From: Spirochaetes bacterium RBG_16_49_21
Lineage (GTDB): Bacteria; Spirochaetota; UBA4802; UBA5550
DNA: 54,100 nucleotides
Reading direction: 5' to 3'
Assembly (NCBI GenBank): GCA_001829495.1
Contig: MIBJ01000001.1
Span: forward strand, 66,414 to 120,513
How positions within the stretch are numbered: the stretch's first letter is position 1; the number at the start of each line of letters is the position of its first letter. The notes under the pieces were generated by a model. That model made no database searches. It saw only the letters and a program-made list of their open reading frames with translations, and had not been told where the DNA came from. Position numbers and translations under genes: made by a program. Positions 6,456 through 29,082 of this stretch are shown here, one piece after another.

Positions 6456-8315
6456 TTAATCAAGCTGGTATATTTTGCGCCAATCCGCTTCTTCCTTGAA
6501 ATCCTTCTGTTCCTTTTTATCAAATAAAAAATTATCCATAGCCAGATAATCCATTTCGGTGCGCATAAAGCACCGAAAGGCATCCAGCGGCGTACAAACG
6601 ATCGGCTCTCCTCTCACATTAAAGCTGGTATTGACGATAACCCCGTAGCCGGTCTGTCTTTTAAATTCATTGATCAGCTCCCAAAATCTCTCGTTTGTCT
6701 GCCTGTTCACGCTCTGAATCCGGGCTGAATAATCGATATGCGTTACGGCCGGAATATCCGAGCGCAGATGATAGAGCCGGTCAAACATGGCCATGGTTTC
6801 ATAATCCCTCGGGAGGGGATTCCTCCTGCTCTCTTTAACCGGGGCAACGAGAAGCATGTAGGGAGAAGGCCGGTCAAGATCAAAATATTCCTGAATATTC
6901 TCTTCCAATACCGAGGGCGCAAAAGGCCTGAAGCCCTCCCGGTATTTGATCTTTAGATTCAGCTTTTTCTGCATATCAGAGTGCCGTGCGTCTCCCAGGA
7001 TCGATCTATTCCCCAGGGCCCGCGGGCCGTATTCCATTCTACCCTGAAACCATCCAACAACTTTGCCCTCTGCGATGAGGCCGGCAACGACGGAAACGAG
7101 GTCGGCAAAGGCGCTGTAATATTTATAGGGAGCATCGAATTTCAATGCGACCCTTTCAATGTCCCTCCGGCCAAATTGAGGCCCCAGAAATGAGCCGGCC
7201 ATGGAGTCGGGCCTCTGAATTGTCGTCCTCTCCTCTCCCTTCCAGATATGCCACGCGACAAGCGCGGCCCCCAGGGCGCCGCCGGCATCGCCGGCAGCAG
7301 GCTGAATCCAAAGGTCATCGAAAATTCCGGATCGCAGCAGCTTACCGTTGGCTACGCAATTGAGCGCCACGCCGCCGGCCAATACGAGATTTCTTCTGCC
7401 GGTTAAGCTCTTTGCGCTCTTTGCAAGCCTGAACACGATCTCCTCAGTGACGCGCTGAGCTGCGAGAGCCAGATTCATATAAGGCTCGGTGATGAGCGTC
7501 TCCGGCTCTCTCTTTGTTAAACCGAACAGCCTTTCCCATTTATCCTCATTGCACATCCTCAGTCCGGTCGCGTACTGGAAGTAGTCCATGTTCAAAAGAA
7601 TCGAGCCGTCCTCTTTTATATCCACTATTTCATCCACTATTTTTCTCTCAAATGCCTTTGTCTCTTCTGAATCAGCAGCGCCGTAAGGGGCTAAACCCAT
7701 CAACTTATATTCCCCGCTGTTGACCTTGAAGCCGCAATAGTAGGTAAACGCTGAATAAAACAGACCTAGTGAATGAGGAAAATGGAGCTCGCGCAAAATC
7801 GAAATGCCGTTCTTCTCGCCGTCGCCTATAGTCGTTGTCGCCCATTCTCCGACGCCGTCGATAGTCAGTATCGCGGCATTCTCAAACGGGGAGGGGTAAA
7901 AGGCGCTGGCGGCATGCGAGAGGTGGTGCTCGGGGAATATAAGACCCGGGATACTCCCTCCCAGTTTAGAAAGCTCCTCCCGCAACATGTTCTTCATGAA
8001 GAGCTTTTCCTTGATCCAAACCGGGATGGCGGAAAAAAAGCTCATCAGTCCCCGCGGGGCGAAGGCGTGATACGTTTCAAGCAGGCGCTCAAATTTTATA
8101 TACGGCTTATCATAAAAGGCAATGACCTCCAGGTCCGGGAGAGCCAGGCCGGCTTCCTCAAGAACGTATCGGACCGCATTGACAGGAAACGAAGAATCAT
8201 GCTTCTTCCGGGTGAACCTCTCCTCCTGGGCCGCCGCGACGATCCTTCCGTCAACCACCATTGCGGCGGCGCTGTCGTGATAATAAGCCGATATACCAAG
8301 AATCGCAGATGACAT
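6456..8315 (-). CDS. Carbamoyltransferase (NodU/CmcH/TobZ family)
   Basis: 619 residues, full length for the family. It opens with ILGISAYYHDSAAAMV, the Kae1-like domain start, and includes HHLSHAASAFYPSPF, the glycine-rich GGVALNCVANGKL nucleotide loop and the C-terminal GRMEYGPRALGNRSIL signature. The family uses carbamoyl phosphate and ATP to carbamoylate a hydroxyl on a secondary metabolite or glycan. The start has GAGGT 4-5 nt upstream and lies 21 bp after the DUF5989 gene, so the two are probably co-transcribed. It converges with the SGNH gene (54 bp apart). The acceptor substrate cannot be read from sequence. Confidence 0.93.
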   Translation of the reverse strand: MSSAILGISAYYHDSAAAMVVDGRIVAAAQEERFTRKKHDSSFPVNAVRYVLEEAGLALPDLEVIAFYDKPYIKFERLLETYHAFAPRGLMSFFSAIPVWIKEKLFMKNMLREELSKLGGSIPGLIFPEHHLSHAASAFYPSPFENAAILTIDGVGEWATTTIGDGEKNGISILRELHFPHSLGLFYSAFTYYCGFKVNSGEYKLMGLAPYGAADSEETKAFERKIVDEIVDIKEDGSILLNMDYFQYATGLRMCNEDKWERLFGLTKREPETLITEPYMNLALAAQRVTEEIVFRLAKSAKSLTGRRNLVLAGGVALNCVANGKLLRSGIFDDLWIQPAAGDAGGALGAALVAWHIWKGEERTTIQRPDSMAGSFLGPQFGRRDIERVALKFDAPYKYYSAFADLVSVVAGLIAEGKVVGWFQGRMEYGPRALGNRSILGDARHSDMQKKLNLKIKYREGFRPFAPSVLEENIQEYFDLDRPSPYMLLVAPVKESRRNPLPRDYETMAMFDRLYHLRSDIPAVTHIDYSARIQSVNRQTNERFWELINEFKRQTGYGVIVNTSFNVRGEPIVCTPLDAFRCFMRTEMDYLAMDNFLFDKKEQKDFKEEADWRKIYQLD

Positions 8316-8336
8316 GCAGACCTCAATACCCGTTAT

Positions 8337-8486
8337 CTAAAAAATTGTATATATAAAGGGAGCGATCGCCGAACCGCCGGAGAACACGATTATCAAACCC
8401 AACAGCAGCAGAATTATAATGAGGGGCAGCAACCAGAATTTCTTTCTTGTTTTTATGAAACCCCAGATTTCTTGTAAAAATTCCAT
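8337..8486 (-). CDS. DUF5989 family small membrane protein
   Basis: A 49-residue reading frame starting MEFLQEIWGF, with GGAG 7 nt before the ATG. After a basic stretch (IKTRKKFW) it has one long hydrophobic segment (about residues 18-36) and ends SGGSAIAPFIYTIF. This is the recognisable DUF5989 pattern, and DUF5989 genes commonly sit between carbamoyltransferase and SxtJ genes, exactly as here. Its function is unknown; it may be a small membrane partner of the carbamoyltransferase. It lies 21 bp upstream of the carbamoyltransferase start. Confidence 0.85.
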   Translation of the reverse strand: MEFLQEIWGFIKTRKKFWLLPLIIILLLLGLIIVFSGGSAIAPFIYTIF

Positions 8487-8531
8487 ATTAAATCTCCATT
8501 ATATTAGACTAGTTGCGACACTAATTTAAAT

Positions 8532-8651
8532 GTCATTGCGAGGAGCGCCAGCGACGAAGCAATCGGAATCAGAATAAAAAAGGCCCTATTACACATTAAC
8601 AACAGTCTTTTTAATAGCATTAGCTGATTGCTTCGCTACGCTCGCAATGAC
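8532..8651. repeat. CATTGCGAGGAGCG-type inverted repeat element
   Basis: The left arm at 8532-8564 starts GTCATTGCGAGGAGCG and ends GAAGCAATC. The right arm at 8626-8651 starts GATTGCTTCG and ends CTCGCAATGAC, an imperfect inverted copy. About 60 bp of AT-rich sequence separates them. This pattern is a widespread non-coding palindromic element in bacterial genomes. Here it is inserted between the DUF5989 and SxtJ genes, which are otherwise expected to be adjacent. Confidence 0.75.
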
Positions 8652-8690
8652 GGTTAGTTTAGCAACAAGTTTATTAATTATGCACAATAC

Positions 8691-9113
8691 TTAATATGGT
8701 TTCTCCACATCTTCCCGTCGGAATGCATGATTTCTGACTTGAAATACCGACGAATCATCCTTTTTCCATTTCTTCAGTAAAAGGGTATCCTTGCCCAACA
8801 AGCTTCTCAACAAGCCTACCGGGGTAACAAGAAAAATAAAAATAATGGTCAACAATACCTTGGAAACGAATGTCCCCAATATATGGGCAAAGCCGAACCA
8901 CAGCCACGCGGCAGGTTTATATAGAACAGGCGACACCATATTGATAATCAGAATGATTATAGCAATGACCTGAAAAATCTTAGCCTTGTCAGGGATAAAC
9001 TGGGCAAGAATGAAAAAAATTAAAACAAGCGCCATGCCCGTGTCTTTTGCCTGATCTCTTGTTATATTTTTATAACGAAGATCCGTTCCGGTATGAGCTT
9101 CCGTGTCTATCAT
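8691..9113 (-). CDS. SxtJ family membrane protein
   Basis: 140 residues with three hydrophobic segments (about 27-42, 46-64 and 80-102) and a charged C-terminal tail (LLKKWKKDDSS...). The size, topology and position two genes upstream of a carbamoyltransferase match the SxtJ family, named from the saxitoxin cluster but common in unrelated genomes. Its role is unknown; it probably acts at the membrane with the carbamoyltransferase. It lies 39 bp downstream of the histidine kinase, so co-transcription with that gene is possible. Confidence 0.75.
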   Translation of the reverse strand: MIDTEAHTGTDLRYKNITRDQAKDTGMALVLIFFILAQFIPDKAKIFQVIAIIILIINMVSPVLYKPAAWLWFGFAHILGTFVSKVLLTIIFIFLVTPVGLLRSLLGKDTLLLKKWKKDDSSVFQVRNHAFRREDVEKPY

Positions 9114-9152
9114 AGACCTGTAATTCGATACCTATAGCGTAATGTCAACTAA

Positions 9153-11822
9153 TTATTCAGGCTTGCCGGAATCGACCTGCCGTGACGCTGCGCGCATCTG
9201 CACCCTCACCTCAAACCCGCCCTGTTCATGGTTGCCGGCGCCGAAATCGGCGCCGATAACCGCTGCGCGGTATCTCATGATCCTCAGGCCCAGGCCCGTG
9301 TCTTTTTTCTCTTTCGCGGCTCCCGTGCCGTTGTCCCGGATGATCATGGCAAGCCCCGCGTCATCGGCGGTCAGGCGGATCATGATCCTCTCGGCTTTCC
9401 CATGCTTGATCGAATTCGTCACCGCCTCCCGTGCGATGTAATAGAGGTGCGTCGCAGTCTGATTGTCGCTGATGAGGAAATTCCCCTCCTGGTATATCTG
9501 GCACGATACGTGGTACACCTTTTCGGTGGCCGCGGCCATCTCGTCGAGCGCGGAGCGGAGGCCGTTCTTCTCCATCTCGACCGGGCTCAGCATGCGCGAC
9601 AGGCTCCGCGTCTGCACGATGGCGTCGCGGATCAGGCTCTCGACATGCTCAATCTCCCGGACCTCATTGCTGAGCTTCTCGGGCATCTTCTCCTTCAGCG
9701 CCTCAATGAGAAAGGTCACGGCCGTGAGATTCTGGCCGAGTCCGTCGTGCAGGTCCTGCCCGATCCTCTGCCGCTCGAGCCCCGCAATCTGCATGATGCC
9801 GTTCTGGAGATTTCTCATCTCGGTGATGTTGGTATAATTCTCGATGACGCCGATTATTTGCCCCTCGTTCGACAGATAGGGAGAGGCATGCACGATGCAG
9901 ATGATATCCTCGTCATTGACGCGGCTTTTGATCTCGTACTCGACGTAGCGCTCGCCATTAATGATGCGCTTCATCACCAGCCGGTCCGATTTCGCAAGAG
10001 CCGTAGCCCCGTCATCGCCCCCGCCTCCTGGAAAAAGCATCGAATCGAGATTGAACATTTCCCTGCACCGCCTGTTGATGTGGATCGTGTTGAATTCACG
10101 ATCAATGACGCGCATCCCGACCGGAGTGGAGTTGAATATCTGCTCAAGCTCGGTGAAGGCCCTGATCTTCTCCTCCTCGGCCTTTTTGCGCTGGGTGGTA
10201 TCCTGCAGGGTTTCAACAGCTCCGATGATATTCCTCTCGGAATCACGGAGCAGCGCGGCCGTGAAAAAGAGCCATTTCCCCAGGTGCGGAAAGAACCGCT
10301 CGCTGTCGGCGGCCCCTTCAAGCACCGGGGACTTTTTGTACTCGCCTCCGTATTTCCGCGCCAGATCAGGGTTCTGCGCACTGTACATGATCATATCCGC
10401 CAGGGACAAGGTTTCGGTTTTGTAGAAGGGCTCCCACTGCCTCCTGGTTCCGACCATTTTCTCCGAAGAAGAACCGGTAAGAATCTCGCAGGCCCGGTTC
10501 CAGTGGGTTATGACATGGTTCTCGTCAATGACGAACGTCGGTATGGGGCTCCCCTCGATGATCTGAGACAGCATCCGCTGCGTCCGCTCCCGGGCCCGCT
10601 CCGCATTCTTGCGCTCGGTTATATCGTTCAAAAAACCCTCCGCGCCCACTATCGCGCCGCGGTAGTAGACCGGCTGGATGTTATACGTCTGGAAGGCGAT
10701 GCTCCCGTCCTTTCGCATCATGCCGGACTCCCCGCGCGCGGTACCGCCCGCCAGAACCCGCGCCATCAGCTCTTTCTGCTCGGCCGCCTCCCGGGGAGGC
10801 TGGGCGATACTGAAGTGCCTGCCGACGACATCGTTGCGCGCGAAGCCGAGAATCCGCTCCCATTCTGCATTGACGTACTGGAACAGGCCGTCCCGGTCGA
10901 CGCGGTAGTATCCGAACGGGGCGTTCTCCACGATGTTCCGAAACCGCTCTTCGCTCTCCTTAAGCTCGCCGAGCGCGGCCTCGTGGTCGCCGCGCAGCTC
11001 GATTCCGCTTAAGGCAAATTCGATGTCGGCAGCGATCTCCCTGAAGAGCACCTGTTCCTCGCTGTCGTACAGAAGGTCTTCAGGCATGGATACACTCAAT
11101 ATCCCCCGAAGCTTGCCGCCGTAGCTGATGCTGACGGTCATCCTGCTTGAACCGGCGCTCTGACTCGAAAGGGGACAGCCGGCGCATTCTATCCGCGGAT
11201 CTCTCGTTAAAATAATCCCCCGCGTGTTGGTCGCGCGCGTGACGCATAGGGGCATGGTTCCATGCATCAGCATGTCAGCCATGGGCTGAAAATTTCCGCC
11301 CAGGCCCGCCTCAGCCGCCGATGTCAATCGCCCGGAATCGTCGAATAGGGCGATCCAGGCGAAAAAATAGCTCCGGTTCTTCACCAGATTCACGCATATC
11401 CCCTTGAGCAGCCTGTCCCGCTCCTTCTCCTTGGTGATCAGATGGTTGATGTCCCTGATGGCGCCGAGAACCAGGTTCAGGTGATGCAGCCGTTCTCTGA
11501 TCCGGCCCGCACGCTCGCTCAAATACGAGACGACCGCGGCAATCGCAAAAAACATGAGGACCCTGATGTAGTCATCCGCCGTGCTGAAATACTCATGTAA
11601 AAATATATTGCTCAATACCAGCGAAAGAGACAAGGCCAGGGCAATCAGGATCCCCCTCCTTCCCCACCAGATCGAAGCCAGGATGATCGGAATGTAGAAA
11701 AAGTGGGTGAACACCGCTGCGCTGTGAAGAATAAAATGGAAGTACACTACAAAAAAGAATGATATCAATATAAGTAATGATATCACGATAATTTTGTATC
11801 TTTCTGAAACCGATTTGATCAC
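9153..11822 (-). CDS. Membrane-anchored PAS sensor histidine kinase (HisKA_3 / NarX-type)
   Basis: 889 residues. The N-terminus has about four membrane segments (10-110). A GAF-like region with CAGCPLSS lies about 120-280. Three PAS domains follow, at about 290-405, 415-535 and 545-665 (the first opens RFRNIVENAPFGYYRVD). The phosphoacceptor helix has ERQRIGQDLHDGLGQNL, typical of HisKA_3, and the ATPase domain has AREAVTNSIKHG and DTGLGLRIMRYRA. Such kinases normally pair with NarL/LuxR-type regulators, but no response regulator is in the window, so it is an orphan here. The start is GTG at 11822 with AGAGGTG about 5-6 nt upstream. The signal is unknown; cysteines in the GAF-like part could sense redox. 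Confidence 0.9.
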   Translation of the reverse strand: MIKSVSERYKIIVISLLILISFFFVVYFHFILHSAAVFTHFFYIPIILASIWWGRRGILIALALSLSLVLSNIFLHEYFSTADDYIRVLMFFAIAAVVSYLSERAGRIRERLHHLNLVLGAIRDINHLITKEKERDRLLKGICVNLVKNRSYFFAWIALFDDSGRLTSAAEAGLGGNFQPMADMLMHGTMPLCVTRATNTRGIILTRDPRIECAGCPLSSQSAGSSRMTVSISYGGKLRGILSVSMPEDLLYDSEEQVLFREIAADIEFALSGIELRGDHEAALGELKESEERFRNIVENAPFGYYRVDRDGLFQYVNAEWERILGFARNDVVGRHFSIAQPPREAAEQKELMARVLAGGTARGESGMMRKDGSIAFQTYNIQPVYYRGAIVGAEGFLNDITERKNAERARERTQRMLSQIIEGSPIPTFVIDENHVITHWNRACEILTGSSSEKMVGTRRQWEPFYKTETLSLADMIMYSAQNPDLARKYGGEYKKSPVLEGAADSERFFPHLGKWLFFTAALLRDSERNIIGAVETLQDTTQRKKAEEEKIRAFTELEQIFNSTPVGMRVIDREFNTIHINRRCREMFNLDSMLFPGGGGDDGATALAKSDRLVMKRIINGERYVEYEIKSRVNDEDIICIVHASPYLSNEGQIIGVIENYTNITEMRNLQNGIMQIAGLERQRIGQDLHDGLGQNLTAVTFLIEALKEKMPEKLSNEVREIEHVESLIRDAIVQTRSLSRMLSPVEMEKNGLRSALDEMAAATEKVYHVSCQIYQEGNFLISDNQTATHLYYIAREAVTNSIKHGKAERIMIRLTADDAGLAMIIRDNGTGAAKEKKDTGLGLRIMRYRAAVIGADFGAGNHEQGGFEVRVQMRAASRQVDSGKPE

Positions 11823-12075
11823 GGAGGCACCTCTCAGATAATTGATTCTGGGTTAATCATAATCTTTCATGATCCAATACGTCAAGATTTCAGCCGCATT
11901 TTTTATTATTTCTTGACATATTTTCATATTCAACATAGTGCGATAAAAATGCCTATGGGCATAGGCTGCCTTTGAGAAGGGAACCTCAAATTAGGATGTT
12001 CCCTTTGGCCGCAATGCAATATACAACCTTGTAACTATTCAGTGCATTTAATCAACCTATACAATGGGAATAGAT

Positions 12076-21605: not shown

Positions 21606-23399
21606 ATGGTTGGCAAACTGAGCCTTACCGAATTTCATGACATCATAAAAGAGCTTACCGAGATCGAATCCGAACTGGAAAGAAACATCAACACAACCAT
21701 GTGGATCAGCGATCCTCATGGAGCAGGCGATCGTTTCACGTCCATCCTGAAGGGAAGATTCGGCCTAATATGGAGAACGGCCCAGGAGGCGCTCTCAAAA
21801 AACTTCTCTAATGAAAAGCTCGATTACCTCGACCAGGTCATTCAGAAAGAGCGATATTTCACCACGGAAGAATTTTCCCTGGAGCGCCAGGACGTCATAG
21901 CCGCGCTGGTAAAAATTATACGGTACAAGGTGGAGGATATTATTGATTTCGACCTGGTGAGGTCGAGCATCAACAAGGACCTCAAAACCGTGATAGAAAA
22001 TCTCATCCTCAACTTTCATGTTCCCAACATCATATATGAAAACGAAATCATCGCGGACAGGGTAATAGCGGCCCTTGCGAAAATCGTGAAGCAGGTCATC
22101 CTGGGCCAGCTCGTGGTTCTCGGCGACGTGTTCGACCGGGGAGACGAGCCGGATAAGATCTTACGGATCCTGTCCAGCAGGGAAATCCGGCCATACGTGA
22201 AATTCGTGTGGGGGAACCACGATATACTCTGGATGGGAGCGGCCGCGGGCAACAAGTCGCTCATCGCCGAGGCGCTTAGGATCAGCGTTCGATACGATAA
22301 TCTGGCTTTTTTAGAGCGGCTCGGCATCGATCTGGAGAAGCTCAAGGCATTCGCGGAAAAGCTCTATCCGGTCGGAATAACCGGCCTGTTCAAGGCTAAA
22401 CTGGAAATATCAAAAAAAATGGAAAAGACCCTCGCCATGATCCAGTTCAAGCTTGAGGAAAAGACGATCAAGCAGTTCCCGGAGCTCGGCATGGAGTCGC
22501 GCCTCAATCTTGAGAGGCTTGCCGGCATGATGAAACGCGGTGAAGTTGAAGGCCTCACCGACACCCATTTCCCGACATTTGATCCGGAGAACCCGCTTGA
22601 GCTGACCGCTGAGGAGACGGATGTCATCGACGACTTGGCGAAGCAGTTCACATCAAGCCTGAAAATCAAAGAGCTGATGAAGTACCTCTTCGAAGTCGGC
22701 ACGCTGTATCATATCAATAATTATATCCTTAACATCCACGCGCTCATTCCGAGCACCGAGGACGGGAAGTTCGACAAGCTCTTCGGAAAACGGGGAAGGG
22801 ATCTCCTCGACCATATCGAAAAGATGGTCAAGAACGTGGGCAAGCGCTACCGGGAAGGCGCGACCCAGGACCCCTTTGAGCTTGCAGTCATGTTTTATCT
22901 CTGGTGCGGGCCGAAATCCCCCTTCTTCGGCAAACACGCGATGAAGACCTTTGAACGATACTTTTTAAAAGACAAGGCCACCCACAAAGAAAAGACGCTC
23001 CACTGGGGCGAGAACTTAAAGAAGAAGGAATTCATGGATCTGATCATGGATGAATTCGGCGCTGAGCGGATCGTGTACGGTCACACGCCGGTGGACGTCA
23101 TGAAGGGCGAAAAAATAGCCTCCCCGGACGGACGCTCCATAAACATAGACGGGGGCTTCTCAGAGGCCTACCTGGGCAGGGGCCATTCCCTCATTTATAC
23201 CCCGTACTCTCTGTACGCCATCATCCTCCCCTCCCTGGACGAGATCAGGGAAGCTAAGCACGCGAATCTCAAGTTTGAAGAAATCGCCCGGTTTGACAAG
23301 CCCAAAAAAGTAAAAGATGTATACAAGGGGAGCGAGCTTGCGAGGCGCCGGGATGATCTTATGAAAAAGCTCAAAACGTACACAAAAAATCCAGTCTAG
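21606..23399 (+). CDS. fbp: Fructose-1,6-bisphosphatase, class III
   Basis: 597 residues. Metal and catalytic motifs of the class III (Firmicutes-type) FBPase are clear: WISDPHGAGDRF, VVLGDVFDRGDEPDK, VWGNHDILWMGAAAGN and VYGHTPVD. It hydrolyses fructose-1,6-bisphosphate to fructose-6-phosphate and phosphate in gluconeogenesis, in the cytoplasm. The size fits the family (about 640). GGAGG lies 5 nt before the ATG. A TTGACA box at about 21513 with a TATTCA about 16 bp downstream is a plausible promoter. Gluconeogenic FBPase agrees with the presence of PFOR and GpmI in the window. Confidence 0.95.
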   Translation: MVGKLSLTEFHDIIKELTEIESELERNINTTMWISDPHGAGDRFTSILKGRFGLIWRTAQEALSKNFSNEKLDYLDQVIQKERYFTTEEFSLERQDVIAALVKIIRYKVEDIIDFDLVRSSINKDLKTVIENLILNFHVPNIIYENEIIADRVIAALAKIVKQVILGQLVVLGDVFDRGDEPDKILRILSSREIRPYVKFVWGNHDILWMGAAAGNKSLIAEALRISVRYDNLAFLERLGIDLEKLKAFAEKLYPVGITGLFKAKLEISKKMEKTLAMIQFKLEEKTIKQFPELGMESRLNLERLAGMMKRGEVEGLTDTHFPTFDPENPLELTAEETDVIDDLAKQFTSSLKIKELMKYLFEVGTLYHINNYILNIHALIPSTEDGKFDKLFGKRGRDLLDHIEKMVKNVGKRYREGATQDPFELAVMFYLWCGPKSPFFGKHAMKTFERYFLKDKATHKEKTLHWGENLKKKEFMDLIMDEFGAERIVYGHTPVDVMKGEKIASPDGRSINIDGGFSEAYLGRGHSLIYTPYSLYAIILPSLDEIREAKHANLKFEEIARFDKPKKVKDVYKGSELARRRDDLMKKLKTYTKNPV

Positions 23400-23518: not shown

Positions 23519-23776
23519 ATGGACAAAAAAATTTCAGTCCGAATAAAATTCTTCTCCGGCTTAGATAAGGATCTAAAACTCGAAAATTACAACCCTGCCG
23601 AAGGGATCCGGATCGTAATTCCTAAAGGAAAACGGCTGAAATTGGCACTCAAGGCTATGGGATTGAAAACTTTTTCCGATTGCGCCTATTTCAGGAGCGG
23701 AGAGAGGATAAGCCCGTGGTCAAAGCTCCGCGATGGAGATGAAGTCACGTGTCTGAAGCCTTCCGGAGGGGGGTAA
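23519..23776 (+). CDS. MoaD/ThiS-like sulfur carrier, AOR-associated
   Basis: 85 residues with a ubiquitin-like beta-grasp pattern and the terminal Gly-Gly-Gly (VTCLKPSGGG). Its place directly upstream of an aldehyde:ferredoxin oxidoreductase matches the MoaD-like proteins dedicated to tungsten-pterin cofactor. The C-terminal glycine would be thiocarboxylated for dithiolene formation. No ribosome site is evident before the ATG. It probably shares a transcript with the AOR gene 185 bp downstream. Confidence 0.8.
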   Translation: MDKKISVRIKFFSGLDKDLKLENYNPAEGIRIVIPKGKRLKLALKAMGLKTFSDCAYFRSGERISPWSKLRDGDEVTCLKPSGGG

Positions 23777-23960: not shown

Positions 23961-25835
23961 ATGCAGGAAATAAAAGGCACCAATGATCGTATTCTTGAAA
24001 TTGATCTGAGCGCAAAAAAATTCCGGGTAACGAAAATCGGGAAGAAGGACCGGAACATGTATTTAGGCGGCAAGGGATTGGCGCTCAAACTTCTATACGA
24101 CCGGATGGAGCCCGGCGTCGACCCCCTGGGCGAAAAGAACATGATCGCCTTTATGATGGGCGTGCTCATGGGAACCGGCGCGCCCTGTTCGGGGCGGTTC
24201 GAGGCTGCCACCAAATCACCCCTCACCGGTATCATGAGCACCGCTTCGTGCGGCGGGCCTTTCGGCATGGCCCTTAAGACATCCGGCTGGGACGGCATCA
24301 TCATCAGCGGCAAAGCAAAGGTCCCCGTTTACCTTTACATCGACTCCAAGGGCGTGCAGCTCAAACCCGCCAAGGCAATCTGGGGTAAGGATACGGGAGC
24401 GGCAGAGGCCGTTTTATCGAAAGAGGGCGTGGGCGCGCTCGTCATCGGCCCGGCGGGCGAGAACCTGGTCAGGTTTGCCAACATCCGTTCCGGCCACCGC
24501 TTCCTGGGAAGGGGCGGCATGGGCGCTGTCCTTGGCTCAAAGAACATCAAGGGAATTGTGGCCAAAGGCGGAGAAGTAAAGATCGTACCTGCCAAGAAAA
24601 AAAAGTTCGACCGCTCCAACAAGAGGTTCTTTAAATATATCAACCAGAACTCCATTACTTCCGGGTCTTACCGCTATTATGGAACAAACGCCAACACGAA
24701 CCTGTCCAACGCAGCCGGCATCCTGCCGGTGCGCAACTTCACCGGCGGATCCCACGGCGAAGCGCATAAAATCTCCGGCGAAACCATGGCTGAGCGCTTC
24801 AAAACCACGTGGGACACGTGTAAGCCCTGCATCATCATGTGCGGCCACAAAGGCATGATAGAAGGAAAAGAGCGTCACATACCGGAATACGAAACCGTCG
24901 GTCTTTTGGGCCACAACCTGGAAATCTTCGATCCGGTGGTGATATCCGAATGGAACGACATCTGCGCCGGCATGGGCATGGATACCATATCATCCGGCGG
25001 CACCCTGGCCTGGGCAATGGAAGCCACGGAAAAGGGATTGGTCAAAACGAATCTAAAATTCGGATCAACCGATGGCATATCTGAAATGCTCAGAAACATT
25101 GCATATCGAAAAGGAATAGGCAAGGACCTGGCTCTCGGCTCAAAAGCTGCATCAAAAAAATACGGCGGCGAAGACTTTGCCATGCACGTGAAAGGCATGG
25201 AGCTGCCGGCTTATGACCCGCGGGGCTGTTTCGGCCACGGTCTGTCCTACGCAACCGCCAACAGGGGGGCCTGTCACCTGTCGACAAGCCTTTTCGTCCT
25301 TGAAGCATATTTAGGCATGGCCGACCCCTATGCCATGAGATGGAAGCATTACATGGTAAAGTTCATGGAAAATGCTTATGCGGCAATGAACTCCCTTCAT
25401 ATCTGCCAGTTCACCGCCTTTGCCGTTTTTCTTGAGCCGCCGCTGATCAAACTGACTCCTAATTTCATCATCAAAATCCTGAACCAGAATCTGGCGCCCC
25501 TTGCACTGAATCTGATGGATGTAAGCCTGTGGCCGGAACTCTGGCATGCGACGGTTGGGAAGACCTATATTCCGTTCGTCAGTATGTTGAAATTCAGGAA
25601 AGCGGGCGAGCGGGTCCATGTGCTCGAACGGTATATGAATACCCGCGAGGGAATATCGAAGAAGGACGACACCCTCCCCCTCCGGCTGCTCACCGAAGGG
25701 AGAAAATGCGACTCGAAAGAGCGGAGTGTGCCGCTTGAAAAGATGCTCAAAAAATATTACCGGTTGAGGGGCTACGATTCAAACGGTATCCCTAAAAAGC
25801 GGACGCTGAAGCGTCTCGGCATTGAGATAAAATGA
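23961..25835 (+). CDS. aor: Aldehyde:ferredoxin oxidoreductase (tungsten-type)
   Basis: 624 residues, full length. The N-terminal domain has YLGGKGLALKLLYD and GPAGENLVRFANIRSGHRFLGRGGMGAV, which bind the bis-pterin tungsten cofactor. The [4Fe-4S] ligands are Cys287, Cys290 and Cys294 (DTCKPCIIMC) and Cys482 (HICQFTAF), matching AOR spacing. It oxidises aldehydes to acids with ferredoxin as acceptor, or the reverse with reduced ferredoxin. The start has AGGGGGA 5 nt upstream. It follows a MoaD-like gene and precedes two Fe-alcohol dehydrogenase paralogs, so aldehyde/alcohol interconversion is the likely context. The subtype (AOR, FOR, GOR or WOR5-like) is not decided. Confidence 0.93.
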   Translation: MQEIKGTNDRILEIDLSAKKFRVTKIGKKDRNMYLGGKGLALKLLYDRMEPGVDPLGEKNMIAFMMGVLMGTGAPCSGRFEAATKSPLTGIMSTASCGGPFGMALKTSGWDGIIISGKAKVPVYLYIDSKGVQLKPAKAIWGKDTGAAEAVLSKEGVGALVIGPAGENLVRFANIRSGHRFLGRGGMGAVLGSKNIKGIVAKGGEVKIVPAKKKKFDRSNKRFFKYINQNSITSGSYRYYGTNANTNLSNAAGILPVRNFTGGSHGEAHKISGETMAERFKTTWDTCKPCIIMCGHKGMIEGKERHIPEYETVGLLGHNLEIFDPVVISEWNDICAGMGMDTISSGGTLAWAMEATEKGLVKTNLKFGSTDGISEMLRNIAYRKGIGKDLALGSKAASKKYGGEDFAMHVKGMELPAYDPRGCFGHGLSYATANRGACHLSTSLFVLEAYLGMADPYAMRWKHYMVKFMENAYAAMNSLHICQFTAFAVFLEPPLIKLTPNFIIKILNQNLAPLALNLMDVSLWPELWHATVGKTYIPFVSMLKFRKAGERVHVLERYMNTREGISKKDDTLPLRLLTEGRKCDSKERSVPLEKMLKKYYRLRGYDSNGIPKKRTLKRLGIEIK

Positions 25836-25909: not shown

Positions 25910-27070
25910 ATGCTGATACCAGATTATTACCAATTCCTGATTCATCCAAAGATAATTTCCGGAAAATGTTCCCTGGAGAACATCCCATCCGAGCTGAATG
26001 GTTACGACGCGCAAAAGCCGCTGGTAATCACCGGCAAAAACATCATGGAGCGCGGTCTGGTTAAGAAATTCATCAAGGCGTTTTACGATTCCACGGTTAC
26101 CCTGGGAGGAATCTTCGATGAGGTCCGCGATTACGCCGGCATATCCCTGGCGCGCGATGCGGCATTTCTTTACAAAGAACGCGGCTGCGACTCGATCATC
26201 GCCCTCGGAAACGGTACGGTCGTGGACCTGGCGAAGGCAGTCAACGTCCTGGTATCGGAAAAAATCGATAATCTCTCCGCTTATCATGAGGGAGCCTCGA
26301 TCAGCCGTCAATTGAAGCCGCTCATCATCGTTCCCGCCTGCCGCTCCAACGGAATGGAGGCGACCAACGTCATGACGATCGACAACAGGCGGATAACAGC
26401 GGACTTCCTGTATCCGGACGTGATCGTAATCGATCCCCGGATGACGCCAGGCTGCTGCCCGGAATGCGTCGCCGAGTCGGGGGTCATCGCCCTTACGCAC
26501 GCGTTCGCGGCCCTTACCGATGAAGCGCACAATCCGATGACCGCCGCCGTAGCGCACCCGGCGCTGAGTTACCTTTCCGAATATCTTCCGAAAGGCGTCA
26601 CACGGCCGAAAAACAAAGACGCCAGCATAGCACTGGCAAATGCCTCCGTATTGGCCGCCAGCGCCTATTCCAACACACGGCCCGGTATGGCGGACCTGCT
26701 CGCGGAGGAGCTATCGATTATTACCGGCATATCCGTAGGAAAATACATGCGGATTCTTCTACCATCATTAATAGCTGATATGCAAAAGAAAAAAATCAAA
26801 ATCAGTGATGAGTTGTTCCTGTCCTTAGTCGGGATGGAGGCGTACGCGGCGACCCCGGTGCAAGAGCGGCCGCAGAAGGGCCTTGATGCTGCCATGAAGC
26901 TTATCAACAGCCTGAAGGGGCTCCTGCCGAAATCGCTGGAGCAACTGAAGATTCAAAAGTATAAACTGGCCGAGGTCGCCAGGGTCGCTGCGGAAAGAAG
27001 CGCGGAACGTTTCACCGACGCCGATTGCCGCACGGTTCTTGAGCAGGCATGGGAAGGGAGCGCCGTCTAG
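25910..27070 (+). CDS. Iron-containing alcohol dehydrogenase paralog lacking metal ligands
   Basis: 386 residues, aligned by eye with the intact paralog at 27769 along its length (MLIPDYYQFL vs MLLPSFYDFC). The Asp of the AMDAMTH motif is Ile193 (GVIALTH), the GH histidine is Glu266 and the PHG histidine is Val276; only His197 remains. The cofactor loop GGGS is GNGT at 100-103 and TTAGTGSE is ACRSNGME. It therefore probably cannot bind Fe/Zn and may be a structural or regulatory partner of the intact enzyme. AGAGAGGAA precedes the ATG by 5 nt. It lies between aor and an SCP2-like gene and looks intact. Confidence 0.85.
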   Translation: MLIPDYYQFLIHPKIISGKCSLENIPSELNGYDAQKPLVITGKNIMERGLVKKFIKAFYDSTVTLGGIFDEVRDYAGISLARDAAFLYKERGCDSIIALGNGTVVDLAKAVNVLVSEKIDNLSAYHEGASISRQLKPLIIVPACRSNGMEATNVMTIDNRRITADFLYPDVIVIDPRMTPGCCPECVAESGVIALTHAFAALTDEAHNPMTAAVAHPALSYLSEYLPKGVTRPKNKDASIALANASVLAASAYSNTRPGMADLLAEELSIITGISVGKYMRILLPSLIADMQKKKIKISDELFLSLVGMEAYAATPVQERPQKGLDAAMKLINSLKGLLPKSLEQLKIQKYKLAEVARVAAERSAERFTDADCRTVLEQAWEGSAV

Positions 27071-27099
27071 ATCGATATCATTACGATAAGGAGAAAGCA

Positions 27100-27714
27100 A
27101 TGAATATAAACAAATATCCTGAAATACAGCCGGGGAAAAAGCTCATCAAGAGAATCTACGTTGCGGTCTTCATGTGGTTTTTCGCCCGGGCGATACAGGC
27201 GGCCGCGAAGGTTGATGAGGAAGTCAAAAAGGAGGTGGAGACAATCCCTGCGAACTTTACCCTGCGCTTAATCGTCAATCCCGAAAAAGCGTTTCCGCTC
27301 TTCTTTTACGCGAAAATGCTGCCCCGCTTTATCGTGGACAAGGGCATCCTCCTGTACGGACTGCAGATGATTATGGGAAAAGACAAAAAAGGAAAATTCC
27401 GCTACCAGGGATCGGATCCGCGCGGCAAGAAAATCAACCTGAGCATGGCTTTCACGAGTCTGGAGGCCGCCATGATGGTCTTCACGTTCAGAGAATCATT
27501 ATGCACGGGATATGCCCATAGCCGCTTTGTGGTGGAGGGCGATCTGCCGTTTGCGCAATCGATTATGCGGATTATGGATCTCACGGCGGTCTTTCTGCTG
27601 CCGAAAATAGTCGCCAAGCTGGTTGTAAAGCGGTATCCCAAGTGGTCCGAGATGTCCCCGCTGCGGAAATATCTCAATCGGGTTCTTGTCTATTTAAGAA
27701 TGTTTACCGTTTAA
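27100..27714 (+). CDS. SCP2-like uncharacterised protein
   Basis: 204 residues. The segment from about 55 to 150 (TLRLIVNPEKAFPLFFYAK, then AMMVFTFRESLCTGYAHSRFVVEGDLPFAQSIMRI) is weakly reminiscent of the sterol-carrier-protein 2 fold, where a hydrophobic tunnel carries lipids or acyl chains. This is suggestive only. Hydrophobic patches (IYVAVFMWFFARA, FLLPKIVAKLV) may reach a membrane. AAGGAG lies 6 nt before the ATG at 27100; an ATG at 27049 would overlap the preceding gene. Its position between two alcohol-dehydrogenase paralogs suggests it binds a hydrophobic substrate of the cassette. Confidence 0.6.
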   Translation: MNINKYPEIQPGKKLIKRIYVAVFMWFFARAIQAAAKVDEEVKKEVETIPANFTLRLIVNPEKAFPLFFYAKMLPRFIVDKGILLYGLQMIMGKDKKGKFRYQGSDPRGKKINLSMAFTSLEAAMMVFTFRESLCTGYAHSRFVVEGDLPFAQSIMRIMDLTAVFLLPKIVAKLVVKRYPKWSEMSPLRKYLNRVLVYLRMFTV

Positions 27715-27768
27715 ATGTACCGGGAACATCCATAGGAACAATTACATTAATAAGTAAGGGGAACCATT

Positions 27769-29034
27769 ATGTTACTTCCAAGCTTTTATGATTTTTGCTG
27801 CCGTGTTAAGACAATATCGGGGAACAAGGCCCTTGAAAAAATACCGGCCCTGCTGGCAGGCATGAACGCCTATCGGCCCCTTATCATTACCGACAAGGGC
27901 GTCGCCTCCGCCGGCCTCGTCGACGTGGTGAAAAAAGCCATGGAAAACAAGCTGAAAATCGGCGCCGTGTACGATGACGTGCCGATGGATTCCGACTACA
28001 AGATCGTCAACGACGCCGTACGGGTATACCGGCAGAAAGGGTGTGATTCGATAATTGCCATCGGCGGCGGCTCCGTTATCGATACCGCCAAGGGGGTCAA
28101 TATCGTGGCGTCGCTGGGCGGGGACAATCTCCTCGACTATGAAGGATATGGAGCCGTCAAGAGAAAACTGAAGCCCTTTGTGGTGGTCCCCACCACAGCC
28201 GGCACCGGCTCTGAAATGACCCTTGTGGCCGTTATAACCGATCCCGATCGAAAAATAAAAATGAATTTTGTATCGTATTTTCTGTTGCCGGACCTGGCGG
28301 TGCTGGATCCGCGCATGACCAGGACCCTGCCCGCATTTCTTACCGCCTCCACGGCAATGGACGCGATGACCCACGCGTGCGAAGCATATTTCTGCATTGA
28401 AAAAAACCCGATAAGCGATTCATTCGCTTTCAGGGCGATCACAATGATCAGCGAAAATTTATTGAATGTAGTAAAGAATCCGGGAAATCTGAACGGCAGG
28501 CTCGCGCTGGCGAACGCATCGACTATGGCGGGGGCCGCATTCTCGAATTCAATGGTCGGAATGGTGCACAATCTGGGTCACACCGTCGGCGCGTTGTGCC
28601 ATGTGCCGCACGGGGTGGCTATGAGCATCTTCCTCCCCTATGGCCTTGAGTACAACCTGCACCGCTCCGCCGACATCATCGGAGAGATACTGTTCCCGCT
28701 GGCGGGCCCGGAAGTATACGCAAGCACACGGAAAAAACATCGCGCGGAGCGGGTCATTGAGCTGATCCGCAAGTTGAACCAGGACCTGCACGACGCGACC
28801 GGCGGCAAGCACCCCCGTTTTCTGAAAGAGATTTACGACCGGAACGGCTCACCGGTTGTGCCGCAATCCATGCTGCCGGTCATTGCGCAAGCCATAATGC
28901 TCGACGGCGCCCGCTTGACCAATCCCGAGGAATTATTGCCCGAGGACGCCCGTATGGTGCTCGAACATGCATGGGAAGGCACGCCGCTTGATCGTAAGAA
29001 AATCAAGAAAGGCGGAAGAAAGGTGAAATATTAA
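27769..29034 (+). CDS. Iron-containing alcohol dehydrogenase (intact)
   Basis: 421 residues. The NAD(P) loop GGGSVIDTAKG and the TTAGTGSEMT segment are intact. Metal ligands are Asp198 and His202 (AMDAMTHACEAY), His271 (NLGHTVG) and His281 (VPHGVAM). It reduces aldehydes or oxidises alcohols with NAD(P)H. AAGGGGA lies 6 nt before the ATG, and the gene is followed by a strong terminator at 29046. It closes the moaD-aor-ADH-SCP2-ADH cassette and is probably the catalytic ADH, perhaps paired with its ligand-less paralog. Substrate specificity is not visible. Confidence 0.95.
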   Translation: MLLPSFYDFCCRVKTISGNKALEKIPALLAGMNAYRPLIITDKGVASAGLVDVVKKAMENKLKIGAVYDDVPMDSDYKIVNDAVRVYRQKGCDSIIAIGGGSVIDTAKGVNIVASLGGDNLLDYEGYGAVKRKLKPFVVVPTTAGTGSEMTLVAVITDPDRKIKMNFVSYFLLPDLAVLDPRMTRTLPAFLTASTAMDAMTHACEAYFCIEKNPISDSFAFRAITMISENLLNVVKNPGNLNGRLALANASTMAGAAFSNSMVGMVHNLGHTVGALCHVPHGVAMSIFLPYGLEYNLHRSADIIGEILFPLAGPEVYASTRKKHRAERVIELIRKLNQDLHDATGGKHPRFLKEIYDRNGSPVVPQSMLPVIAQAIMLDGARLTNPEELLPEDARMVLEHAWEGTPLDRKKIKKGGRKVKY

Positions 29035-29045
29035 TGCAAAAATTT

Positions 29046-29073
29046 GAAGGCGGGGTTGCTTAACCCCGCCTTC
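29046..29073. terminator. Bidirectional rho-independent terminator
   Basis: GAAGGCGGGGTT (29046-29057) and AACCCCGCCTTC (29062-29073) form a 12-bp perfect stem with a GCTT loop, followed by ATTTTATTATT and preceded by a run of A on the other strand. It sits between the convergent ADH gene and plsB and can serve both. Confidence 0.9.
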
Positions 29074-29082
29074 ATTTTATTA

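Follow-up and report, generated by a model that had tools for sequence, protein, structure and literature searches.

A ligand-less iron-type alcohol dehydrogenase paralog, conserved beside an intact one in Spirochaetota and Desulfobacterota, as a probable non-catalytic partner

Why would a bacterium keep an iron-type alcohol dehydrogenase (Fe-ADH) paralog that has lost most of its metal site next to one that is complete? The question is raised by a 54,100-nucleotide stretch of the genome of Spirochaetes bacterium RBG_16_49_21 (contig MIBJ01000001.1, positions 66,414 to 120,513 of the forward strand), here called the window. It contains ADH1 (25910..27070, 386 amino acids), a paralog without the metal site that was recognized by its Pfam Fe-ADH domains and by alignment of the ligands, and ADH2 (27769..29034, 421 amino acids), an intact Fe-ADH with the ligands Asp198, His202, His267 and His281. 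Both genes, like the other parts of their cassette and the hairpin located below, are on the forward strand. The altered copy was kept beside the normal one in many distant anaerobic bacteria, which suggests that it is probably a working, non-catalytic partner.

ADH1 matched PF00465 (E = 1.7e-26; 93.2 bits with a cut-off of 31.3) and PF25137 (E = 6.6e-17; 62.3 bits with a cut-off of 27), and with both domains above the gathering score it is classed by homology as a full-length member of the Fe-ADH superfamily. The matches of ADH2 were stronger (5.4e-47 and 4.6e-40, respectively). The ligand columns were read from alignments of ADH1 with ADH2 and with solved Fe-ADHs. The four ligands of ADH2 align, in order, with Ile193, His197, Asp262 and Val276 of ADH1, so three of the four metal ligands are lost in the window's ADH1: the Asp position is occupied by Ile193 (codon 26486..26488), the third-ligand His position by Asp262 (26693..26695) and the fourth-ligand His position, in the PHG motif, by Val276 (26735..26737); His197 is kept. 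An initial sequence-only reading of this DNA had described ADH1 as a protein that keeps its fold and loses three ligands, and the count, Ile193 and Val276 bear out the ligand loss. Its third residue, Glu266 (codon 26705..26707), has to be replaced by Asp262: Glu266 aligns with His271 of ADH2, which corresponds to FucO His267, a residue that does not coordinate the metal according to the available part of PMC5125639.

The same reading had noted the loss of two loops from ADH1 and a complete second paralog, and here the alignment agreed. The NAD-binding GGGS is GNGT in ADH1 (residues 100-103; 26207..26218) and TGSE is NGME, and all four ligands and GGGS are present in ADH2. In the portion of PMC5125639 at hand, GGGS is said to be conserved across all FeADH subfamilies. 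By these residues ADH2 would be a metal-dependent Fe-ADH, and ADH1, in which the Asp-His-His-His site and the GGGS loop are both missing, would not.

The loss extended to every relative aligned. All 72 aligned ADH1 rows, the window's included, lacked the Asp, the equivalent of FucO His267 and the last His, a pattern that exceeds chance. No ligand was kept in 35 of these rows, one was kept in 11, two in 26 and three in none; the 72 include the divergent ADH1 of locus L131 (110 bits, end branch 4.91), whose placement and ligand columns are uncertain, and a few other highly divergent rows in which single ligand columns are possibly misaligned. The residues at the Asp site were I, T, A, V, L, R, G, S, P and M, and such varied substitutes argue against a new metal site in ADH1. 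TGSE was found in 0 of the 72 rows. Every one of the 97 ADH2 rows, whether next to an ADH1 or not, had the four ligands and GGGS, and TGSE was present in 96. Rows left out of the analysis were the partial ADH1 of L054 and L058, the ADH2 of L041 (broken at the N-terminus) and of L077 (less than 300 amino acids) and, from the ADH2 counts, L112_ADH2b, which is intact and is not the cassette's own ADH2. The ADH1 of L162 is truncated at a contig end. Here, and in the second tree and the insert comparison below, the rows from L132 to L151 took their class from the ligand residues; an assignment of these 40 genes from their profile scores had given identical classes. A 73rd ADH1 (L173, genome G458) had the same ligand loss. 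Of the residues conserved in ADH2, ADH1 did best at positions 21-40 (mean retention of 78% over 5 columns) and worst at the active-site segment 261-280 (21% over 10 columns).

Both genes are homologous over both domains to the group III Fe-ADHs (FucO/DhaT/methanol dehydrogenase family, PF00465/PF25137), whose ligands and motifs ADH2 keeps; unlike that group, ADH1 was without the metal site in all 72 rows and without GGGS in 69. The known enzymes of this family are, to our knowledge, homo-oligomers. The top NCBIfam match of both proteins was ErcA (NF041833, "alcohol dehydrogenase-like regulatory protein"), with 126.8 bits for ADH1 and 275.7 bits for ADH2; both lie far under the 550-bit cut-off and therefore outside this family.

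The sequence-only reading had proposed looking for the pair in related genomes, and it proved to be conserved in both Spirochaetota and Desulfobacterota. The searches of 296, 395 and 340 genomes scored the top 4 to 6 candidates from each genome, so that the counts of ADH1-bearing genomes are minimum values. The first search, with the window's ADH1 as query, covered 59 genomes including the window's own; of the five other genomes in the same genus, four had the pair. When 296 Spirochaetota genomes were searched with a profile built from 29 ADH1 sequences, at least 30 places in 29 genomes were detected; these matches scored at least 398 bits and were all in the window's order, and the next match, at 371 bits, was an intact ADH2. 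The sterol carrier protein 2 (SCP2)-like gene that separates the two ADH genes in the window, here SCP, and ADH2 adjoined ADH1 in 28 of the 30 fetched Spirochaetota loci, and the other two end at contig ends. A scan of named contigs for the SCP family gave 27 loci, 26 of them with ADH1 and many on the same contigs as the Spirochaetota set; six of the 26 belong, by label, to deltaproteobacterial, syntrophaceal or desulfobacterial metagenome-assembled genomes. In the phylum Desulfobacterota, matches at 1e-80 came from 24 of 395 genomes, and in one order within it 85 of 340 genomes gave matches at 1e-75, many of these matches being ADH2-type genes. Each of the 24 tandem pairs fetched from the two lists (4 + 20) consisted of one ligand-less and one intact gene. 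At least 36 genomes, among the 340 from that order, had ADH1 and ADH2 as neighbors; G296, G299, G300, G301 and 12 loci from a follow-up described below are counted among them, and the gene order SCP-ADH1-ADH2 was common there.

In the fetched loci, ADH1 was seen only with ADH2 wherever the contig continues. An assembly artefact was considered and rejected, since the pair recurs in many separate genomes. Pairs of a dead and a live paralog are a known theme, and with a site-less paralog conserved beside an intact one, ADH1 and ADH2 have, by sequence, the make-up of a putative enzyme-pseudoenzyme pair. The sequence-only reading had taken an inactive partner in a heteromeric aldehyde/alcohol module to be new; among the papers listed by searches of the open-access literature, subscription papers lying mostly outside them, none dealt with a ligand-less Fe-ADH that has an intact one as its pair, and the single paper naming both the enzyme and pseudoenzymes had the latter word just in its references. 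Locus L131 (4655-5770, genome G266), from Spirochaetota outside the window's order, carries its divergent ADH1-like gene between SCP and an intact ADH2.

A degenerate active site could simply mark a duplicate that is decaying without function. ADH1 evolved about 2.5 times faster than ADH2 (30 taxa), as such a gene might, but its ratio of nonsynonymous to synonymous substitution (dN/dS) was 0.05-0.36 in nine close pairs, the highest value coming from a pair with a dS of just 0.145, in which ADH2 had 0.23, and several other pairs having a dS above 1; a tenth pair (L114/L115) yielded no value. ADH1 dN/dS was 1.6 to 2.9 times that of ADH2 in the eight pairs computable for both. ADH1 is not decaying and is under purifying selection. 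Its frames are open in relatives from two phyla, in keeping with the expectation of a paralog without frameshifts or neutral drift, and its gene linkage is preserved. In a first tree 40 of 40 ADH1 rows formed one group (support of 100 in the Shimodaira-Hasegawa-like approximate likelihood ratio test, SH-aLRT; L059 left out), and in a second, unrooted tree with the active-site columns removed 59 of 59 did so (SH-aLRT 99; L131_ADH1 and L112_ADH2b left out). Both trees were quick searches with SH-aLRT support only, and several ADH1 branches were long. The dN/dS values and the single grouping largely refute decay, which we consider highly improbable. The distances among ADH1 and those among ADH2 sequences were correlated (r = 0.82, and 0.75 with SCP distance controlled; 30 taxa).

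ADH2 itself carries a mark of the pairing. A nine-residue insert (residues 346-354 of the window's ADH2; 28804..28830) was present in 58 of 58 paired ADH2 and in 1 of 19 unpaired ones, where paired and unpaired refer to a list compiled from the loci fetched here and the comparison is post hoc, the insert having first been noticed in the same set. Paired ADH2 usually also had a longer C-terminal tail. The unpaired exception is from G458, in which SCP and a ligand-less ADH1 are found at one end of a different contig, and the cassette was most simply split by assembly. The follow-up used 20 hand-picked rather than random loci from the 1e-75 list of the Desulfobacterota order, with one listed Fe-ADH each, high- and lower-scoring ones both included. 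ADH1 was beside 12 of the 13 insert-bearing ADH2 and beside none of the seven without the insert (Fisher p = 1e-4, a value that ignores relatedness), and the 12 ADH1 neighbors had fallen below the listing threshold. The tie between ADH1 and the insert favors a working partnership of the two proteins. If that reading is true, the insert would be a sequence marker by which an uncharacterised acid/alcohol module could be recognized in Spirochaetota and Desulfobacterota.

Alternatively, ADH1 could assist ADH2 as a chaperone or by loading its metal rather than be a stable subunit. The pairing and the shared fold are compatible with such a role, as are the 37 of 72 ADH1 rows that keep one or two ligand positions, but ADH1 as a group has no conserved metal-binding residue, and unpaired ADH2 relatives retain their ligands without an adjacent ADH1. 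We regard this role as quite improbable.

The explanation that we favor is that ADH1 is probably a non-catalytic subunit of a hetero-oligomeric alcohol dehydrogenase, in which ADH2 is its partner. An Fe-ADH paralog would have lost, most simply in a single event, its metal site and usually the NAD loop as well, and purifying selection would then have kept it as the partner of ADH2. The two proteins would form a hetero-oligomer in which ADH2 alone turns over aldehyde and alcohol, and ADH1 would have a scaffolding or regulatory role, bringing ADH2 to an aldehyde:ferredoxin oxidoreductase (AOR) and to the SCP2-like carrier. In this scheme, where we infer physical assembly, the absence of activity in ADH1, substrate channelling, the substrate class and the direction, AOR would interconvert acid and aldehyde with ferredoxin, ADH2 would do the same for aldehyde and alcohol, using NAD(P)H, and a hydrophobic aldehyde would pass between them; it is the SCP2-like carrier that suggests a hydrophobic aldehyde. 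If true, the iron-type alcohol dehydrogenase family would include members that work as a hetero-oligomer.

Several observations weigh against a non-catalytic subunit or against parts of this scheme. One genome of the same genus, G001 (90% complete), had no ADH1 ortholog (best E 3.9e-27), and 7 of the 30 Spirochaetota loci were without AOR next to the cluster. An insert-bearing ADH2, in L163 (genome G776), had no adjacent ADH1 and no SCP match genome-wide. The paired ADH2 genes, that of G458 included, formed one tree group (SH-aLRT 93), so the association with the insert is a strong linkage but is close to one evolutionary event. ADH1 had few group-specific conserved residues, and its structure model, made from the single sequence with no alignment, was poor (predicted local distance difference test score, pLDDT, of 37.8). 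Finally, the maleylacetate reductases of this superfamily resemble ADH1 in the absence of a metal but are active enzymes, as the available part of PMC5125639 describes. Ligand loss alone is therefore no proof that ADH1 is inactive, and an altered enzyme is the main rival to the subunit reading.

That rival takes ADH1 to be a re-purposed enzyme or ligand-binding protein, with other chemistry that needs no metal or with a role as a metabolite sensor. Besides the active metal-free relatives, the purifying selection on ADH1 would fit it, as would the 26 of 72 rows with two ligand positions kept. However, the ligand positions hold no conserved alternative residue, GGGS is kept in just 3 of 72 rows and, in the fetched loci, ADH1 occurs only with ADH2 where the contig continues. 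We consider re-purposing unlikely, and a non-catalytic subunit beside ADH2 is the reading that we carry forward.

How far the partnership extends depends on the neighboring genes, of which the sequence-only reading had listed an aor, a MoaD-like and an SCP2-like gene as parts of an AOR cassette. AOR (23961..25835, 624 amino acids) was confirmed by PF02730 (E = 3.6e-69) and PF01314 (E = 2e-113). It adjoined the cluster in 23 of the 30 fetched Spirochaetota ADH1 loci, so AOR is a common, not a universal, part of the cassette. The gene between ADH1 and ADH2 (27100..27714, 204 amino acids) had no match to the SCP2 domain of Pfam, PF02036, and among 32 members of its family matches were obtained for 3, the best with an E of 0.016. 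Identifying it as SCP2 from sequence failed, and the predicted fold was used instead; the model is SCP2-like, with a structural match to SCP2 proteins, which makes the product a putative SCP2-like carrier protein. In eight Desulfobacterota loci (L116, L120, L142, L144-L146, L152 and L153), for example at L116:2575-5778 and L120:3145-5682, a single open reading frame encodes AOR fused to the SCP2-like domain.

A larger complex could be built on these neighbors, and we put it forward tentatively, as a possibility about which we are rather more doubtful than confident. The dead paralog would be an obligate structural subunit that docks ADH2 to a unit of AOR and SCP2 by way of the ADH2 insert and tail; carboxylic acid, hydrophobic aldehyde and alcohol would be interconverted within a single complex, and the SCP2 carrier would hand over the aldehyde. 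If true, it would suggest a lipid-carrier route for hydrophobic aldehydes between an aldehyde oxidoreductase and an alcohol dehydrogenase. No paper in the open-access literature searched mentioned AOR alongside SCP2 or sterol carrier protein. The two-step pathway itself is known: in Thermoanaerobacter, AOR and then ADH act in sequence on acid, aldehyde and alcohol (PMC10816221, available in part). That system resembles the AOR and ADH of the window, but the available text mentions no ligand-less paralog or SCP2-like carrier and does not contain the terms "gene cluster", "MoaD" or "iron-containing". The AorABC(DE) system of Aromatoleum aromaticum is an AOR operon with MoaD-like maturation genes and shares this combination with the window; unlike the window, no ADH or SCP2 protein is mentioned for it in the part of PMC6365974 at hand.

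Additional genes accompanied some cassettes. L112 (about 8100-12000) has, beside its cassette, a second, partial AOR, an additional intact Fe-ADH and two more small proteins, which passed the Pfam SCP2 cut-off (21.3 bits). Directly downstream of AOR in L113 (9361-9804) is a 148-amino-acid protein with several 4Fe-4S motifs, a possible electron-transfer subunit. The AOR of L048 (5740-7606) consists of two overlapping open frames, possibly through a frameshift or an assembly error.

In the window the cluster runs on one strand in the order MoaD-like, AOR, ADH1, SCP2-like and ADH2, the genes being separated by 184, 74, 29 and 54 bp; the ADH1 and ADH2 reading frames are open over the coordinates given above. 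Purine-rich, ribosome-site-like stretches precede ADH1, SCP and ADH2, in agreement with the ribosome sites that had been claimed for the two ADH genes. The first gene (23519..23776) encodes a small MoaD/ThiS-like protein of 85 amino acids, which had no match in Pfam or NCBIfam; its label rests on its size and its C-terminal GGG, which was invariant in 11 of 11 aligned rows. Homologues were present in 10 of the 30 Spirochaetota ADH1 loci. Downstream of ADH2 is an intrinsic-terminator-like hairpin of 13 pairs (29045..29074), detected in a hairpin scan scored on both strands; the window had seven such hairpins compared with 7.9 expected from shuffles, and they are not enriched. Ten selected neighbor proteins from 7 of 14 listed cassette loci did not point consistently to any pathway. 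Upstream of the cluster, the gene at window 21606-23399 was 85% identical to L063:1441-3303, which matches FBPase_2 and is upstream of the cassette there as well, so the neighborhood is shared with a genome of the same genus.

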